This document shows, one piece after another, positions 7,108 to 45,628 of a stretch of 64,000 bases of DNA (positions are counted from its first letter, which is position 1; every line of letters begins with the position of its first letter). A program made the translations under genes and the position numbers. The stretch spans positions 1 to 64,000 of the forward strand of contig JANYKQ010000047.1 in assembly GCA_025358115.1 (NCBI GenBank), in the 5' to 3' direction. The notes under the pieces were generated by a model. The model had not been told where the DNA came from. It saw only the letters and a list, made by a program, of their open reading frames with translations, and did not search any database. The stretch comes from Methanomicrobiales archaeon (GTDB lineage Archaea > Halobacteriota > Methanomicrobia > Methanomicrobiales > Methanospirillaceae).

Positions 7108-9924
7108 TTAATCGTACTCCCGGAACAGGGCCGTGTTCTGCCGGCGGATCCACCAGCGCCTGAACAGGAAGACTCCCCCGATGACTGCTCCAAGAGCAAC
7201 AATTCCTTCTAGTACGATAACGGGGATGCCGGGATCCGTTACCGGTGCAGCCGGGACTGCAGTTGTTGCAGTTGTCACCGGTACAGAAGTGACGGTACTT
7301 TCGGCAACCGGCCTTGTGGCTGGCAGCGGGGCAGGAGCAGTTGTCACAACCTGATCACCGGGAGTTGTTCCGTTTGACAGTGTTGAAACCATGGTCGTGT
7401 TTGCATCAATCCCTGCAGGTGAAACGACAACAGCAAACTGCGAGAAACCCGGTGTCTGCACTTCATATTGATAAGCATCCCCGTTCTGGCTGACCAGAGA
7501 ACCCGTGAGCGGGCTCCACCGGCCATCGTGATTCCGCATGAGGGTAACCTGTGCCGGATCAATATGATGATCCCGGAGATATTGCCCATTCACTGAGAAG
7601 GATATCGTTGCGCCATTCACCAGATTCGGGTTGAGTCCTACAAGTTCGATCGTGATGAAACCCACCACATTCTGTCCTGGGATCGATCCCCCGTAGCTGA
7701 CCGTTCCGCCCATCAATTCGACATTTCCCTGGTTCTGGTTAAACACGATCTTCACCTCGTTTAATGCTACCGGGGAAATTACGGTGGGATTCTGGTCAAA
7801 GGAGAATGTTGCTGGTTGTCCTGCGACAATGTTGGCAGCGGTCGAGAATGTCGGGCTGCCTGAGCTGCCCGGGGCGTTATTGCTGCCGCCATTGTCTGCG
7901 GGTGCAGGAGTGGGTGTCGGGGTGGGTGTCGGAGTGGAGTACGTAAACCGGTCCGCAGCGCCGGTGGCACTCGTGCCAGCCGAAGTTGTCACCGTGATAT
8001 CCACGGTTCCCGCAGAGCCGGCAGGAGATACGGCGGTGATCTGGGTAGCTGAGTTCACCGTGTAACTGGCAGCGTTGGTTGCACCGAATTTGACCGCAGT
8101 CGCCCCGGTAAACGCGGTGCCGGTAATGGTTACACTCGTGCCACCCGCAGTAGTGCCGCCGGTCGGGCTGATACCGGTTATGGTCGGGGCGGCGGCGGTG
8201 AGGAAGAGATAGGCAGCCCCGGCATCCGAAGCAGCGGTATCGTTCCTGGTTGCCCCGACCAGCGCGGCTGAACCGTCGGAGGAGAGCGCAACGGAGTACC
8301 CGAACTCGTCATTCGCGGCACCGCCGGTGAACGTTGAATCTGCGGCTGAGGCAGATTTGCTGCTCCACCCTCCTCCCTTCTCGAAGATATACGCAGCGCC
8401 GGCACCCGAACCGGCGGTGCGGTTATACGGTGCTCCGATAAGTGCCGTATCGCCGGAAAGCGCAACAGAATAGCCAAGGTTGTCATCCGATAAGCCACCG
8501 GTGAACTGGGCGTTTGCGGCTGAGGCGGATTTGCTGCTCCAGCCGCCCCCTTTCTCAAAGATATACGCGGCCCCGGCATCCGAATCTGCAGTGTCGTTAT
8601 AATATGCCCCGACCAGCGCCGTTGAACCGTCGGGGGAGAGTGCAACGGAATACCCGAAGTAGTCATTCATGGCACCGCCGGTGAACCATGCATCCGCAGC
8701 TGAGGCTGATCTGCTGACCCACCCTCCGCCCGGTTTCACGAAGATATACGCGGCCCCGGAATCCGAACCTGCGGTTTCGTTCGAGATTGCCCCGACCAGC
8801 GCGGTTGACCCGTCGGAGGAGAGCGCTACGGACCAGCCGAAGCTCTCACCGCTGAGGCCACCGGTGAGCTGGGCATTTGCCGCCGAGGCAGTTTTACTGC
8901 TCCACCCGCCCCCCTTCTCGAAGATATACGCGGCCCCGGTATTCGATTCGGGGGTGTCGTTATTATATGCCCCGACCAGCGCCGTGGAGCCATCGGAGGA
9001 GAGGGCTACGAAGTACCCGAAGTAGTCATTCGTGGCGCCGCCGGTGAACCGGGCATCCGCAGCTGAGGCCGAGACCACCGGGTCGATGGTGATCGGGTAG
9101 ACCGCCCGGGTATCATCCACAACCCACGAGAGCGAGGTCCCGTCCGTTGCCAGGGATACGGGAAGTGCTGTCCCGTCAGCAGAGACCGCGAAAAGACCAG
9201 TATAGGTGAAGAGGGGCTCGCCTGAGGCACCGGTGAACGTGAGTGCCGTGACGTCCGTGCCGGAGCGGGTGGCATTCCCGGCAAGCCCGAACCGGACCTG
9301 CAGGGGGCCGGTACCGGGGGGACGGCTCGTGATGGTCATGCCCTGCTCGATACCGGTGTCAGTGTTCCGGTACCATTCGGTGTACGCCGGGCGGGTGATA
9401 TTCAGCTCCCGCCCGCTGGCAGTTGCAACCCCGCGCCCGGCAGGAGTGCAGGTATCATCCCTGCAGAGCCCGGCAAGGGTCATGCCGAAGGCGGTGCCGG
9501 TGCCAGGGCCGGAGAAGGCTGCCGTCCCGTTCATCGGGGTATATGTAAAGGTAATCCGGTTTGCCGTATTGCGGGCATACCATGAACCGGTTGTTTCATC
9601 ATACGAAAAGGCGTGAAGGGTCTCCAGGATCCGCCCCTTCAGTGCCGAGGCATCCGCTGGGGGGAACTTTGTATCGATCACGGAAAAGGGGTCGGCCCCG
9701 GTGCGGTCCGGTATTGTCATGCCGAACTGCCCGGCGATCCCACCGGCTGCGGCGAACGGGAACATTTCTGGTTCTATAGCAAAAACTCCATCACCGGGGA
9801 CCGGGACTATTGCACCCGGCATCAGGAAATCAGAGGGCATCATAGCCGCTCCCACAGGCCCTGCGAGTGACAGCGCGATAATCAACAGCCATGTAAATAC
9901 CAGACCGTACCGTTCCGCATCCAT
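7108..9924 (-). CDS. FG-GAP repeat / IPT / PGF-pre-PGF cell-surface protein
   Basis: A secreted, membrane-anchored surface protein of about 938 residues. The N-terminus is a signal peptide (charged MDAERY, then a hydrophobic stretch ending near GPVGAA). After a unique region come five tandem FG-GAP-type repeats of about 60 residues (about 289-581), each with a VALS.DG.(T/A)AL(V/I)GA core. Next are an IPT/TIG domain (582-667), a Pro-Thr linker, a PGF-pre-PGF-type domain ending in TPGFSQFAVVV, a second Thr/Pro-rich stalk and a C-terminal helix with a basic tail (FRRWWIRRQ). FG-GAP repeats form beta-propellers, here presumably for adhesion or envelope contact. ATG at 9922-9924 is chosen, with AGGAG upstream. 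It is flanked by direct repeats A and B. Confidence 0.85.
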   Translation of the reverse strand: MDAERYGLVFTWLLIIALSLAGPVGAAMMPSDFLMPGAIVPVPGDGVFAIEPEMFPFAAAGGIAGQFGMTIPDRTGADPFSVIDTKFPPADASALKGRILETLHAFSYDETTGSWYARNTANRITFTYTPMNGTAAFSGPGTGTAFGMTLAGLCRDDTCTPAGRGVATASGRELNITRPAYTEWYRNTDTGIEQGMTITSRPPGTGPLQVRFGLAGNATRSGTDVTALTFTGASGEPLFTYTGLFAVSADGTALPVSLATDGTSLSWVVDDTRAVYPITIDPVVSASAADARFTGGATNDYFGYFVALSSDGSTALVGAYNNDTPESNTGAAYIFEKGGGWSSKTASAANAQLTGGLSGESFGWSVALSSDGSTALVGAISNETAGSDSGAAYIFVKPGGGWVSRSASAADAWFTGGAMNDYFGYSVALSPDGSTALVGAYYNDTADSDAGAAYIFEKGGGWSSKSASAANAQFTGGLSDDNLGYSVALSGDTALIGAPYNRTAGSGAGAAYIFEKGGGWSSKSASAADSTFTGGAANDEFGYSVALSSDGSAALVGATRNDTAASDAGAAYLFLTAAAPTITGISPTGGTTAGGTSVTITGTAFTGATAVKFGATNAASYTVNSATQITAVSPAGSAGTVDITVTTSAGTSATGAADRFTYSTPTPTPTPTPAPADNGGSNNAPGSSGSPTFSTAANIVAGQPATFSFDQNPTVISPVALNEVKIVFNQNQGNVELMGGTVSYGGSIPGQNVVGFITIELVGLNPNLVNGATISFSVNGQYLRDHHIDPAQVTLMRNHDGRWSPLTGSLVSQNGDAYQYEVQTPGFSQFAVVVSPAGIDANTTMVSTLSNGTTPGDQVVTTAPAPLPATRPVAESTVTSVPVTTATTAVPAAPVTDPGIPVIVLEGIVALGAVIGGVFLFRRWWIRRQNTALFREYD
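8194..9072 (-). repeat. Five tandem FG-GAP coding repeats
   Basis: Five units of about 175-185 bp within the surface gene are highly similar at DNA level. The peptide block GAAYIFEKGGGWSS is encoded three times almost unchanged and once more with an extra Pro. The fourth unit is shorter, having lost two residues in its VALSGD loop. Similarity at the DNA level points to recent duplication or gene conversion. Confidence 0.8.
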
Positions 9925-40750: not shown

Positions 40751-41386
40751 TCATGGATGATCGGCCTCCCGTTCTTCTTTGTTTTTCTCTTCCTGCCGGC
40801 ACTCCTTTTTCTTTCCGGTAATGGCAAGGTGAGGTGCTGCCCGGTGTGCCGATGGGAAACCACATGCAGCGAGAAGTTCTGCCCCCTGGGTGCTGCTCCC
40901 CTCACCCGAACTGGCGGCGAGTGCTGAGACTGACAGGAGGGAAAACGGCAGGTTCATGCCAAAAAAATCTGCAGCAGGAATATCCGGGAAATTCTCCGGG
41001 TGGTAATTCCGCCATGTGGTGCGGTGCACGCAGATTCCCATGGCCTCAATCATCCTGGCCGCCCGGCCCGACGGCATGGATCTGCAGAGGGTTATATAGA
41101 GATCGATGACCGGAGAACCGACCCGGGTACCCGGATAGAATGGTTCATCGGCATAACAGAGATGTAAACATTTCCTGCAGGTGAACCGTTTCACCTTCAC
41201 CATGATGACGCGTTCTTCTTCCTGTTCCCTGATTACAGCGAACTGTTTGGGCCGGGTATCGTACCCGGAGACCGGACCGCCGCATAACGGACATTGCGGG
41301 AGCCCGGAGAACTCAGTTCCTTCAAATGCACCCAGAGCGGTCTGCAGGATATCAATTACCATGGGCGGAATGCGGGGAGGTTTCAT
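40751..41386 (-). CDS. Zinc-ribbon / HTH protein resembling a transposase N-terminus
   Basis: 211 residues. A zinc ribbon (CPLCGG...CRKCLHLC, residues about 32-77) is followed by a helical region IDLYITLCRSMPSGRAARMIEAMGICVHRTTWRNY. That order resembles the DNA-binding front end of several transposases. No DDE catalytic domain follows; the last 70 residues are low-complexity and charged (KKKECRQEEKNKEE). It lies directly beside the fdhAB fossil. Function unknown; an element remnant is possible. Confidence 0.6.
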   Translation of the reverse strand: MKPPRIPPMVIDILQTALGAFEGTEFSGLPQCPLCGGPVSGYDTRPKQFAVIREQEEERVIMVKVKRFTCRKCLHLCYADEPFYPGTRVGSPVIDLYITLCRSMPSGRAARMIEAMGICVHRTTWRNYHPENFPDIPAADFFGMNLPFSLLSVSALAASSGEGSSTQGAELLAACGFPSAHRAAPHLAITGKKKECRQEEKNKEEREADHP

Positions 41387-41572: not shown

Positions 41573-42123
41573 GGATCATTCCCTGATTTCAGGTACGTAC
41601 CAGGCACCCATTCCTGCTGTGGAACCGGTCGCGGGATCAACCTTTTAGTCAGGGATGGTCAGGTCACAGGTATCTCACCCTGGCAGCATAACCCGATCAA
41701 CGAAAGCAAGGTCTGTATTTGCGGTAACAAGTCTTTCGGGTCTGTCAACAGTGCAGCACGCATCACCACACCGTCCCTGCCATGATTGATGTGGCAGCAG
41801 CCGGCAGGAGCAGGGCACACTGCATCAGGTACTACTCGTGCATTTCAGTCTGCCCGAACTGCTATTTTGTTGACCGTACGACCAGGGACCCGGACTACGC
41901 CTCCTGCGGCGAAGTTCCTCTGAATTTCATGTTCCGCCTCATCCGCTTTGCCCACATCGCGGATTCATGCGTGAACTGCGGCCAGTGCCAGGAACTCCGC
42001 CCCTCAGAAATTCCCAAACGCGCTCTTCATGCACTCCCGGCAGGTTGAACCCGGGAGATGTCCAATCACATGCCCGGTGGCAACATGAACCTCCCGCTTA
42101 TGGCCTTAGCAGAAGAAAAGTAG
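41573..42123 (+). pseudogene. Collapsed formate dehydrogenase fdhA-fdhB remnant
   Basis: The first frame (to TGA at 41783) reads like the start of FdhA: FRYVPGTHSCCGTGRGINLL, then NPINESKVCICGN and RITTPSLP. Several cysteines of the FeS site are lost. From 41782 another frame reads like the C-terminal ferredoxin region of FdhB: CIRYYSCISVCPNC and CVNCGQCQELRP, with Tyr and Arg in place of ligand Cys. A third frame (42058-42123) continues with NMNLPLMALAEEK. Most of fdhA and the front of fdhB are deleted. The parent was probably the F420-dependent formate dehydrogenase, whose genes occur as fdhA-fdhB. Confidence 0.75.
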
Positions 42124-42388
42124 AACGCAACCGTCTCCACAACTCCGGAAGCGACATGATCTACGAGAACGTATTCAAGTTCCTGGCCAGACATTTTTTT
42201 TAATTTTTTTTAACAGGCAACTCATTTTTACCCCCTGATGTCATCCTTTGGATACCATTGAAAAACCGGATCAGGATTTGTCCGGGTACCCCGGTAGTTT
42301 TTACTCCTGTCATGAATACCTGAAAACAGGATATGCAGACGACAGACCAGAACGCATTAATAAAAAGCACACCAGACATTCGAACCAT

Positions 42389-43078
42389 ATGAACCGTTCT
42401 CCTGCTCTTGCGATTCTTCTTGCCCTTCTTATTACCGGGGTAACTTTTGCCGGATGCATGACAAACGCACCACTCCCTGCACCGGTTGCACCTTCCCCGT
42501 CCGGTCCGGTTCCTGCCCCAGAACCCGGTGCGAACCCGGGTGCCCCCGTAAGCATCCTCTTTGTCCAGGAAGCCCCGTCAGGTTCGCTTGTTCCTGCCGG
42601 AAATGGCGTCTGCACGCTCACTCTCTCCGGTGTTGTCCCGTACACAACGTATTTCTCGGACCGGCCGGAGCGTATCGCCGGGTTTTATCCCCTGCAGGAT
42701 TTTCTTGCCGGGTTCAACTGGTCGGCAGCGCCCGGTGCGGCAATATCCCGGCCGGATGCAAAAGAGTCCGAAGACACCCTGATAGTCACCCTCTCGGATC
42801 CCCGGTATAACCGCACGGCAAACGAGCTGGTCTATACCGTGAAAATAATCGCTGATTACAAAGGGGCCGGGCTTAAGGAACTTGCAGCAAAAGCCGATCC
42901 GAAACTCCCGGAAAACCTTGGCAGGGTGAGCCTGTTCATCGATTCAGGAAGCCGGCCCGGTAGTGACGCAACATCGTGTACAGAGGGGCGAAGCTGCCTG
43001 GATACCTGTGAGATCAAAGGGGGAAAGGGTGCCTGTTACCTGATCTGCGGACCATTCTGTCCTGCCCCATCCGGATAA
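42389..43078 (+). CDS. Secreted lipoprotein, function unknown
   Basis: About 229 residues. Signal peptide with lipobox TFAGC, then a Pro/Ala-rich linker and a globular domain. The last third has six cysteines (SCTEGRSCLDTCEIKGGKGA then CYLICGPFC), suggesting disulfides. ATG at 42389 is chosen because it starts the signal peptide; the open frame upstream has no such feature. No domain recognised. It stands alone between the fdhAB fossil and the next minus-strand gene. Confidence 0.7.
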   Translation: MNRSPALAILLALLITGVTFAGCMTNAPLPAPVAPSPSGPVPAPEPGANPGAPVSILFVQEAPSGSLVPAGNGVCTLTLSGVVPYTTYFSDRPERIAGFYPLQDFLAGFNWSAAPGAAISRPDAKESEDTLIVTLSDPRYNRTANELVYTVKIIADYKGAGLKELAAKADPKLPENLGRVSLFIDSGSRPGSDATSCTEGRSCLDTCEIKGGKGACYLICGPFCPAPSG

Positions 43079-43215
43079 TACCGTATTGAGTGAAAAAATG
43101 AACGGGAACTCCTGAGGCTGATCCTGCGGTTCTGATGGGAGTGATCTCCTTTTTCCAGCGGAAAACCGGTTTTTCGGGAAAAAAACTGCCGGAATTCCCG
43201 GTTACGGATTCTCGA

Positions 43216-43668
43216 TCATTTCCATTTGAAGAGCGGAATCATCGGTTTTAACGGATCATAGGTACCGCCCAGGGCAGATAATGCAAAGGTCTTGGAAAAG
43301 ACGTTTTTCTCTTCGTTTTCGAATGTTATTATCACTTTGACTTCCTGGATCATCGAATCGAATGAGCGGGTATGGGTTTCATCGACAGCAAGGAGTGCCA
43401 CATCATATTCGGTATTCAAAGGAACAAGCGCCACGTGGATATGTGAAGCGGTCGAATTTCCTGAATTCTTTAAGATAACCGATTTGGCATCTTCCGAGAG
43501 GCTCGCCTCGACATCGGGATGGGAAACGCTGTCCTGCATAATCAGCAGGGAGACAAATAACGTGATTACCAGAATAAAAACAATGCCTGCCAGATAGATA
43601 TTGAGTGTATAGAGGATGATGGTGACAGCAATACCCAGCACCAGAACGATCAGAGACTTTTTATCCAT
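43216..43668 (-). CDS. Two-helix membrane protein with outer beta domain, unknown
   Basis: 150 residues: two adjacent N-terminal transmembrane helices (about 5-45), then a soluble beta-rich domain with the pattern SVILKNSGNSTASHIHVALV and VKVIITFENEEKNVFSK, reminiscent of CARDB-type immunoglobulin-like folds. No catalytic motif. The gene is isolated, with A/T-rich DNA on both sides. Confidence 0.65.
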   Translation of the reverse strand: MDKKSLIVLVLGIAVTIILYTLNIYLAGIVFILVITLFVSLLIMQDSVSHPDVEASLSEDAKSVILKNSGNSTASHIHVALVPLNTEYDVALLAVDETHTRSFDSMIQEVKVIITFENEEKNVFSKTFALSALGGTYDPLKPMIPLFKWK

Positions 43669-44210
43669 ACTTCATAGTTGTGCATCCCGCCTTTTTTGTT
43701 TAACGGTTTAGTATTAAAAAAACCGGTGCTTCCCATTATCCCCTGCATTCCTCCAAATCTGGTGCATGGAATATTTTTTCACGGTGACACAGGATTTTTT
43801 CAGTAAAAACTGTATGCATGACCCCACAGTCTCTCCGGCTTTTTCCGGAATTCTTCCGGTTACCCATGGGTAAAGTAGTAAATTCTCCCGGGAAACGACC
43901 GGAATGATATATCACCTCGGTTTTTTTTGACTGCGCGTAGTAAAAAACTTTTTTTCCGGTTGTCCTTTTTTTAAAAAAAAATCCATACCCAAGCAAACCG
44001 ATTCAATACGTTTATTAATAATACCCTGCCGTACAGCCATTTTCATTAACACCTTAGAGCTGCATTATTCCTATTCATTGCTGTACACGAGCCTGATTCG
44101 CAAACAATTCGAAAATTATTAATATCCACGCAAGAGAGTGTAAATTGCCCTATACAGAAAAGTGATTTAATACGTTGCTGGTATAGGTGGTCAATTGAGG
44201 TGTGTTAAAA
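43669..44210. other. A/T-rich gap and leader before fdhC
   Basis: No gene seen. TTATTAATATCC near 44115-44126 and TTTAATACG near 44165-44173 are possible promoter elements for fdhC; GAGGTG at about 44197-44202 is its ribosome-binding site. Confidence 0.4.
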
Positions 44211-45089
44211 ATGGTGTTTCATCCTCCGGTAGCAATTACTGCAAAGGCAGGAGATGCCGGTAAGTACAAAGTCGGCTTGCCGGCCTGGAACATGGTCCTT
44301 CGTGGATTCATGTCAGGCGCATACATCGCTATGGGTGCCGCTCTTGCAACGGTCTGTTCAACTGGAATTATGGCAACCGATGTTGCACTGCGTTTCGGAA
44401 CCGCAAGCCCAGGGTTTGCACAGTTGATTCTCGGGTGCGTCTTCCCGGTCGGGCTTATCATCACCGTCCTTACGGGCGCTGAGCTCTTCACTGGTGACGC
44501 GATGCTCGCCCCCATGGCAGCATTCATCCACAAGATCAGCTGGATGCAGGTCGCGAACCTGTGGGTCTTTGTCTATATCGGAAACTTCATCGGATCAGTC
44601 GTATTTGCCTACATCTGTGCATACGGCCCCTTTGTCTCGTTCGATGCAGCGGGAGTAGGTACGGTTACTGCGTTTGGTTCCCGGGCGATTGCGATAGCCG
44701 GAGCCAAGGTTGGTTATGTCGGGATCATGGGTTTCTACTCTGCATTCCTCAAAGCCATCGCCTGCAACTGGTTAGTCAACCTCGCTATTCTGCTCGGAAT
44801 CTGTGCAGATGATGCAGTTGGCAAGTTCTTCGGTATCTGGTTCCCGATCATGGCGTTCGTTTCATCAGGATTCGAGCACTCGATTGCAAACATGTACTTT
44901 ATCCCCGCAGGTATCTTTACCCAGGGATTCATTACGGACCCAACGAAGATCAATGCCAGCATCAACTGGGTTACCATGTGGACTGCAAACATTATCCCGG
45001 TAACTCTTGGTAACATCGTCGGAGGTATCTTCTTCGTCGGTGTCATCTACTGGGTTGCGTTCCGCAAAGAGATCGCAGCACTGAAGTAG
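44211..45089 (+). CDS. fdhC: Formate channel/transporter FdhC
   Basis: A formate-nitrite transporter (FNT) family membrane protein of about 292 residues with six helices. FNT features seen are RGFMSGAYIAMGAAL near the N-terminus, the omega-loop region LTGAELFTGD, NWLVNLA, and GFEHSIANMYFIP, which contains the pore histidine. ATG at 44211 has GAGGTG upstream. fdhC is normally followed by fdhAB in methanogens; here only a decayed fdhAB remnant lies about 2 kb upstream and unrelated genes follow. It may still import formate for other enzymes. Confidence 0.93.
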   Translation: MVFHPPVAITAKAGDAGKYKVGLPAWNMVLRGFMSGAYIAMGAALATVCSTGIMATDVALRFGTASPGFAQLILGCVFPVGLIITVLTGAELFTGDAMLAPMAAFIHKISWMQVANLWVFVYIGNFIGSVVFAYICAYGPFVSFDAAGVGTVTAFGSRAIAIAGAKVGYVGIMGFYSAFLKAIACNWLVNLAILLGICADDAVGKFFGIWFPIMAFVSSGFEHSIANMYFIPAGIFTQGFITDPTKINASINWVTMWTANIIPVTLGNIVGGIFFVGVIYWVAFRKEIAALK

Positions 45090-45112
45090 ATTAACATCCA
45101 ATTATTTTTCCG

Positions 45113-45628
45113 ATGAAGATCGGAAATATCGAAGTGAAGGTCTCAATCATCTCAATAGGGGTGTTTGTCTTCTTCACTATTTTTCTCATTCTTGCCTCTC
45201 TCTATAGTCCTGAGGTCAGGTCAAACCTTATCTGGTTGATCCCGGTCCTGTTCATGCTTCTCGTCATTCCCGTTGCCCTCAACTATATGAGCCGCAGCCA
45301 GTACGCGGAGCTGGAACCCGAGTATGAGCGCCAGGCAAAGACGGTGCGCGTGAAGCTGATCAATGAAAACATGATAGGAAAGATTGTTCGAATCAATGGT
45401 GTGGTGGAACGCGTCCATTTTCAGTTCTTAAACCGGCCCCAGTATTCGGTGGCCGATCGCTCCGGTGCGATCTCGGTTAAGATGTTTACGAGCCCGGATG
45501 AGAACATCAAGGTGAACGATGTTGTCGAGGTGCTTGGCCAGGTGATACGCCGGTATATCGTGACCGGTGAACCTGTGGTCAACTGTGTCTCGATCCGGAA
45601 GAAAAGTGCACCGGCAAAGGATGAATGA
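45113..45628 (+). CDS. Membrane-anchored OB-fold protein
   Basis: 171 residues. Two N-terminal transmembrane helices (about 8-58) are followed by a region (IGKIVRINGVVERVHFQFLN to GAISVKMFTSPDENIKVNDVVEVLGQV) with the strand order of an OB-fold nucleic-acid-binding domain. It follows fdhC after 24 bp and is probably co-transcribed. No specific function recognised. Confidence 0.65.
   Translation: MKIGNIEVKVSIISIGVFVFFTIFLILASLYSPEVRSNLIWLIPVLFMLLVIPVALNYMSRSQYAELEPEYERQAKTVRVKLINENMIGKIVRINGVVERVHFQFLNRPQYSVADRSGAISVKMFTSPDENIKVNDVVEVLGQVIRRYIVTGEPVVNCVSIRKKSAPAKDE

Follow-up and report, generated by a model that had tools for sequence, protein, structure and literature searches.

The window, by which we mean the whole 64,000-nucleotide stretch of DNA that was analysed, is part of contig C54 of a draft genome bin (2.26 Mb, 97 contigs, 70% complete). 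Between a divergent gene for a zinc-ribbon protein, here called X, and a membrane-protein gene it holds the broken remains of an fdhA–fdhB pair, and an intact fdhC lies further on (Table 1). Three short frames in the broken stretch had been read from the sequence alone as the start of FdhA, the ferredoxin end of FdhB and a further FdhB tail, and tblastn of FdhA and FdhB against the window bears this out. The intact FdhA of the same genome matches 41585–41773 (frame 2, E 5.4e-15, 48% identity) and its intact FdhB matches 41803–42015 (frame 1, E 3.1e-17, 49% identity), all further FdhA or FdhB matches in the 64-kb window having E values above 0.3; the TIGR01591 profile also detects the fdhA piece (E 9.4e-8). 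As for the tail frame (RLHNSGSDMIYENVF), it comes from the end of FdhB: the last fdhB codons (...RLHNTGSDMIYENVF) align with the fossil DNA once the three one-base indels that break the fdhB part are allowed.

Table 1. Features of the fossil fdhA–fdhB pair and its neighbours in the window.
Feature	Position	Strand	Evidence
X, zinc-ribbon protein, divergent to the fossil	40751..41386	-	40% identity to a C43 protein encoded divergently from an intact fdhA
Whole fossil: fdhA start, internal fdhA scrap and fdhB end	41583-42203	+	tblastn
Fossil start of short fdhA, codons 1-63	41583..41772	+	82% DNA identity to the G006 orthologue
Fossil internal fdhA scrap, codons about 340-357	41766..41816	+	86% over 51 bp to G006
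Fossil fdhB end, codon about 291 to poly-T tract	41816..42203	+	79% DNA identity to G006
Membrane protein between fossil and fdhC	43216..43668	-	same place in G006, 71% identity in L032
fdhC, formate/nitrite-family channel, intact	44211..45089	+	PF01226, E 9e-74

The nearest relative with an intact unit, genome G006, carries it at the same locus (L032 9311–12419) in an identical gene order on both sides: acs-tbp-rpiA-surE-mfnD-mfnF-X-fdhAB-mem-fdhC-OB-cyc-kef, where mem is the membrane-protein gene, mfnD is mfnD-like and OB is OB-fold-like, and where X and mem lie on the strand opposite to fdhAB. A Cys-rich, lipoprotein-like frame at 42389–43078 (+), between the fossil and the membrane-protein gene, is absent from the G006 locus. 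Pfam gave no match for X, the lipoprotein, the membrane protein or the OB-like protein, and a tRNA scan gave no match.

DNA alignment with the G006 orthologue reveals two internal deletions in the fossil, of 835 and 1,660 bp, neither of which is a multiple of three. The sequence-only reading had proposed one internal deletion of most of fdhAB followed by decay; deletion and decay both hold, but the deletions number two instead of one because of the 51-bp internal fdhA scrap, which that reading had not noticed. At the junction of the 835-bp deletion lies the 7-bp CCACACC (41766–41772), a possible microhomology. The fossil fdhA has neither the ATG nor the ribosome site (GGTTAGAACATGGATTTC in the intact gene, GGATCATTCCCTGATTTC in the fossil), and six iron–sulphur Cys ligands are lost in total: C10H and C17R in the Fe4S4 domain of FdhA, and four in the ferredoxin domain of FdhB that are Cys in all intact orthologues and have become Tyr, Phe, Arg and Arg, so that the replacement of ligands by Tyr and Arg noted from the sequence alone was correctly seen. 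When the comparison is limited to sites on which three outgroup copies agree, changes found only in the fossil fall at codon positions 1, 2 and 3 in the numbers 18/22/16, against 0/2/8 for those found only in G006 (positions 1 and 2 versus 3, Fisher's exact p = 0.0033, from a small sample). The avoidance of codon positions 1 and 2 is thus gone in the fossil, a relaxation of constraint that agrees with the lesions. Every testable mark of a pseudogene is present, and 41583–42203 is a true pseudogene of an fdhA–fdhB pair.

As a pseudogene the relic is unremarkable, and it is the tracing of its intact counterpart that exposes an FdhA subfamily with an altered active site. At the same locus, G006 and seven other genomes (G062, G002, G017, G020, G030, G015 and G010) encode a short FdhA of 617–622 residues, the copies being 72–90% identical to that of G006, while their identity to the three ordinary FdhA proteins encoded in the genome in hand is only 41–49%. 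This short form occurs in 8 of the 232 genomes of the order, all of them Methanoregula; beyond the eight, two further members of the genus (G032 and G008) show a cut-off end of it at a contig edge. All eight fall together in a tree, as a single clade with a long stem. The intact short FdhA scores 603.1 bits against TIGR01591, below the curated cut-off of 666.25, whereas ordinary FdhA of the same genome score 818–880. The residue following the active-site Cys is Asn in all eight, against His in the complete ordinary copies examined. Also missing are the TGR..H motif, a C-terminal TNxALDPxxxxPEFKxCAV stretch and a 28-residue loop, all three of which contribute to the pterin site in the FdhA family. 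Retained are the active-site Cys, the substrate Arg and the invariant C10, C13, C17 and C45 of the Fe4S4 domain, and the pterin-binding domain PF01568 still matches (41 bits, 618 residues); with the active Cys, the Arg and PF01568 in place, some molybdopterin chemistry is therefore possible. An AlphaFold2 model (mean pLDDT 78.6) has the formate dehydrogenase fold, codon-position counts show the intact copies to be under purifying selection, and the gene next door encodes FrhB_FdhB_N and FrhB_FdhB_C domains. The intact orthologues thus make up a subfamily confined to Methanoregula in which the active site is altered. To judge from its first 65 residues, which are 71% identical to short FdhA and carry the subfamily's KVCI.GNKSF signature, the enzyme lost from the window was this short, divergent paralogue and not an ordinary formate dehydrogenase.

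Ordinary FdhAB, as defined by TIGR01591 and exemplified by the Methanospirillum hungatei Fdh-Hdr-Fmd complex (PDB 7BKB), shares with the short unit its two-gene order, the Fe4S4 domain, the active Cys and the Arg, and its FdhB is 84% identical to the FdhB of the short unit. The two FdhA differ in length (618 versus 687 residues for the ordinary form), in Cys-Asn for Cys-His, in the missing TGR..H and TNxALDP motifs and in falling below the TIGR01591 cut-off; the window copy, in addition, is dead. A second precedent is ElpAB of Methanothermobacter, which passes electrons from F420H2 to heterodisulfide reductase (Nomura et al. 2025, PMC12350162; PDB 8RVY). That paper describes ElpA, an FdhA homologue without a pterin domain, as acting with ElpB in F420H2 use only, reports that the M. 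hungatei FdhAB-MvhD-HdrABC complex can use F420H2, probably at FdhB, and mentions 'ElpA-like' proteins in Methanomicrobiales (PMC12350162). From sequence, ElpAB (8rvu_D is a sequence relative) and the short unit look alike in joining an FdhA-derived subunit, probably without formate activity, to an F420-active FdhB homologue. ElpA (about 340 residues), however, has lost the whole pterin-binding domain, while the short FdhA keeps a reduced one and has no adjacent MvhD; the short fdhAB locus contains no MvhD/ElpC gene. Non-catalytic FdhA-like scaffolds beside FdhB have also been surveyed in other methane archaea (PMC12054007). In the Molybdop-FdhB-HdrA clusters of ANME and Methanosarcinales (PMC12054007), as in the short unit, a proposed scaffold FdhA-like protein that has lost its active site stands beside FdhB; in those clusters the active Cys is missing and the genes lie with hdrA, whereas the short unit keeps the Cys and has no hdrA at its locus. 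Set against the first two of these precedents, the intact orthologue departs from formate dehydrogenase alpha subunits in score and in Cys-His, and from ElpA in keeping a pterin domain, although by its domains it has an F420-active FdhB partner; we therefore file it under neither, and the short unit may work like Elp.

Two Methanoregula genomes bear on what the short unit does. G010, which we take to be Methanoregula boonei in part because fdhC is missing from it, has the short form as its only FdhA and a single FdhB. M. boonei has no formate transporter and is unable to use formate (PMC10579272). G015 (Ca. Methanoregula pelomyxae) has an intact FdhB as partner of its short FdhA, while its ordinary fdhB, adjacent to that pair, is disrupted and spread over three frames (L036 13109–14350). 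This disruption could account for the two FdhA but single FdhB reported for the symbiont (PMC10579272). On Methanoregula fdhAB paralogues, the literature searched yielded only the puzzle in that paper. The Fdh and Elp precedents, the short form as the sole FdhA of putative M. boonei and the FdhB pattern of G015 together lead us to propose a role between F420H2 and heterodisulfide reductase (Hdr). Our favoured reading, to which we give a probability of roughly 0.6, is that 41583–42203 is a unitary pseudogene of the short FdhA paralogue and its FdhB, and that the intact unit would be a donor of F420H2 electrons to Hdr that does not oxidise formate.

Retention of the active Cys, the Arg, the Fe4S4 ligands and the formate dehydrogenase fold, and purifying selection on the intact copies, would also suit a true specialised molybdo-enzyme that was lost here, whether a formate dehydrogenase with altered kinetics, an enzyme for another small substrate or one working only in CO2 reduction. 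We regard this as rather unlikely, given that Cys-Asn replaces Cys-His in 8/8, that the pterin-site motifs are gone and that putative M. boonei, a non-user of formate, has only the short form. Improbable, and rejected, is the version of the sequence-only reading, in which an ordinary F420-dependent formate dehydrogenase operon, fdhAB(C), gave rise to the fossil: its homology to both Fdh subunits, fdhC 2 kb downstream and the ordinary fdhAB held at the same locus by some relatives (e.g. G005, G025 and G035) all suit it, but the identity to ordinary FdhA is about 48%, far below that to the short subfamily with its signature, the internal scrap lies in the region beside the loop absent in the short form, and G006, the closest relative with the unit, has the short form. 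That the fossil is an assembly artefact or a chimeric contig, as a fragmented and incomplete metagenome bin might invite one to suppose, is very hard to credit when the gene order on both sides equals that of G006 over about 16 kb, when scattered substitutions, indels and ligand losses are impossible through a mis-join and when G003 holds a different relic at the same place. An 88-codon frame does cross the ferredoxin part, yet a still functional small gene such as a mini-ferredoxin can be dismissed, since in that frame the four ligand Cys are gone, neither start nor ribosome site is retained, codon positions 1 and 2 vary almost as freely as position 3, and no conserved frame of the fossil's layout was found in sister genomes.

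On the favoured reading of an F420H2-dependent donor to Hdr, the short FdhA would probably not oxidise formate. FdhB would instead take hydride from F420H2, the iron–sulphur chain would pass electrons towards HdrABC, and the short FdhA would take no part in catalysis but provide docking and relay, on the model of ElpAB in Methanothermobacter. The suggestion that the cell may have another formate dehydrogenase proved right: three intact ordinary fdhAB pairs lie elsewhere in the genome (one on C20, two on C43), along with an fdhB end at the edge of contig C4, and no intact short fdhA was found in this assembly, which is 70% complete. Three ordinary FdhAB, whose FdhB could do the same job, might have made the short unit dispensable in this lineage, to be deleted and then to decay. 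More tentatively, we propose that a formate-independent FdhA paralogue passing only F420H2 electrons to Hdr arose within Methanoregula itself, Elp-like yet separate in origin from the truncated ElpA, and was lost repeatedly at one locus where ordinary FdhAB was retained in the genome. If this were true, it would explain how Hdr is fed in M. boonei and Ca. M. pelomyxae, both without Mvh hydrogenase or a formate transporter, and the window would hold one such loss caught midway. Annotation probably files the short FdhA as formate dehydrogenase, and the presence of fdhA in Methanoregula genomes should not be taken as formate use. The short subfamily, together with the relatives that have lost it, makes electron supply to Hdr in hydrogenotrophic Methanomicrobiales without MvhAG testable.

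A tree of three flanking proteins groups this genome with G006, G021, G034, G001, G014 and G004 (support 100/100). Within that group only G006 retains the unit, and the other five have 164–406 bp between X and the membrane-protein gene with no remnant. By blastn, no fdhAB remnants were found in the gap from X to the membrane-protein gene, or in the nearest stretch, of those five or of G011, G028, G060, G019, G012 and G029. Elsewhere in the tree, G003 keeps a 66-bp relic of the fdhB tail between X and fdhC (contig C7, L073 about 9,690–9,760), where the unit was lost independently and the loss has gone further. The fewest state changes on the tree number six, and, if the unit is ancestral, at least eight losses besides the decay in the window are needed; such counts are a rough guide because certain inner branches are poorly supported and recombination may have taken place. 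The fdhC genes of G000 and G004, for example, are 99% identical with differing flanks. Separately, the ordinary fdhA at the same locus in G027 (L055 1–1930) is split, with stops reported inside, and is possibly another decaying copy.

Gene X accompanies fdhA widely. Of its 57 copies in the genus, 44, counting the one beside the window fossil, start 162–548 bp from a divergent fdhA. The remaining 13 are all found at this locus; 12 of these have no fdhAB there, and the other stands at a contig edge. Across the order, other Methanomicrobiales included, X is divergent and adjacent at 26 of 80 fdhA loci. Members of the family lie in the window, in L010 (6080–6637 and 10841–11608) and in L086–L165. 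NCBIfam gives only a weak match to an ISL3-transposase zinc finger (E 4e-4). X makes a good candidate fdh regulator. Decay of X alongside its fdhAB partner was not borne out, its codon pattern being much the same with or without fdhAB.

The fdhC gene was rightly described from the sequence alone as intact with a good ribosome site (GAGGTG, 7 nt before the ATG). Its product scores 248 bits against PF01226 (gathering score 34.6) in an intact frame and so belongs to the formate/nitrite transporter family, its differences from G006 fall at codon positions 1, 2 and 3 in the numbers 27/17/95, a purifying pattern, and it is the single match in the assembly, which is 70% complete. The description of fdhC as usually in the same operon did not stand up here, where the opposite-strand membrane-protein gene intervenes. 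Nor did the idea that FdhC has been put to a different use: with three intact ordinary fdhAB pairs still in the genome, no new role need be invoked for its survival, and most relatives keep fdhC at the locus with or without fdhAB, so that its survival here is no sign of a new use. FdhC would still serve the ordinary FdhAB enzymes. Over 44211–45628, fdhC and the next gene are 98–99% identical to L071 9320–10734 of G004, whereas their neighbours are only 57–90% identical, and this suggests recent exchange.
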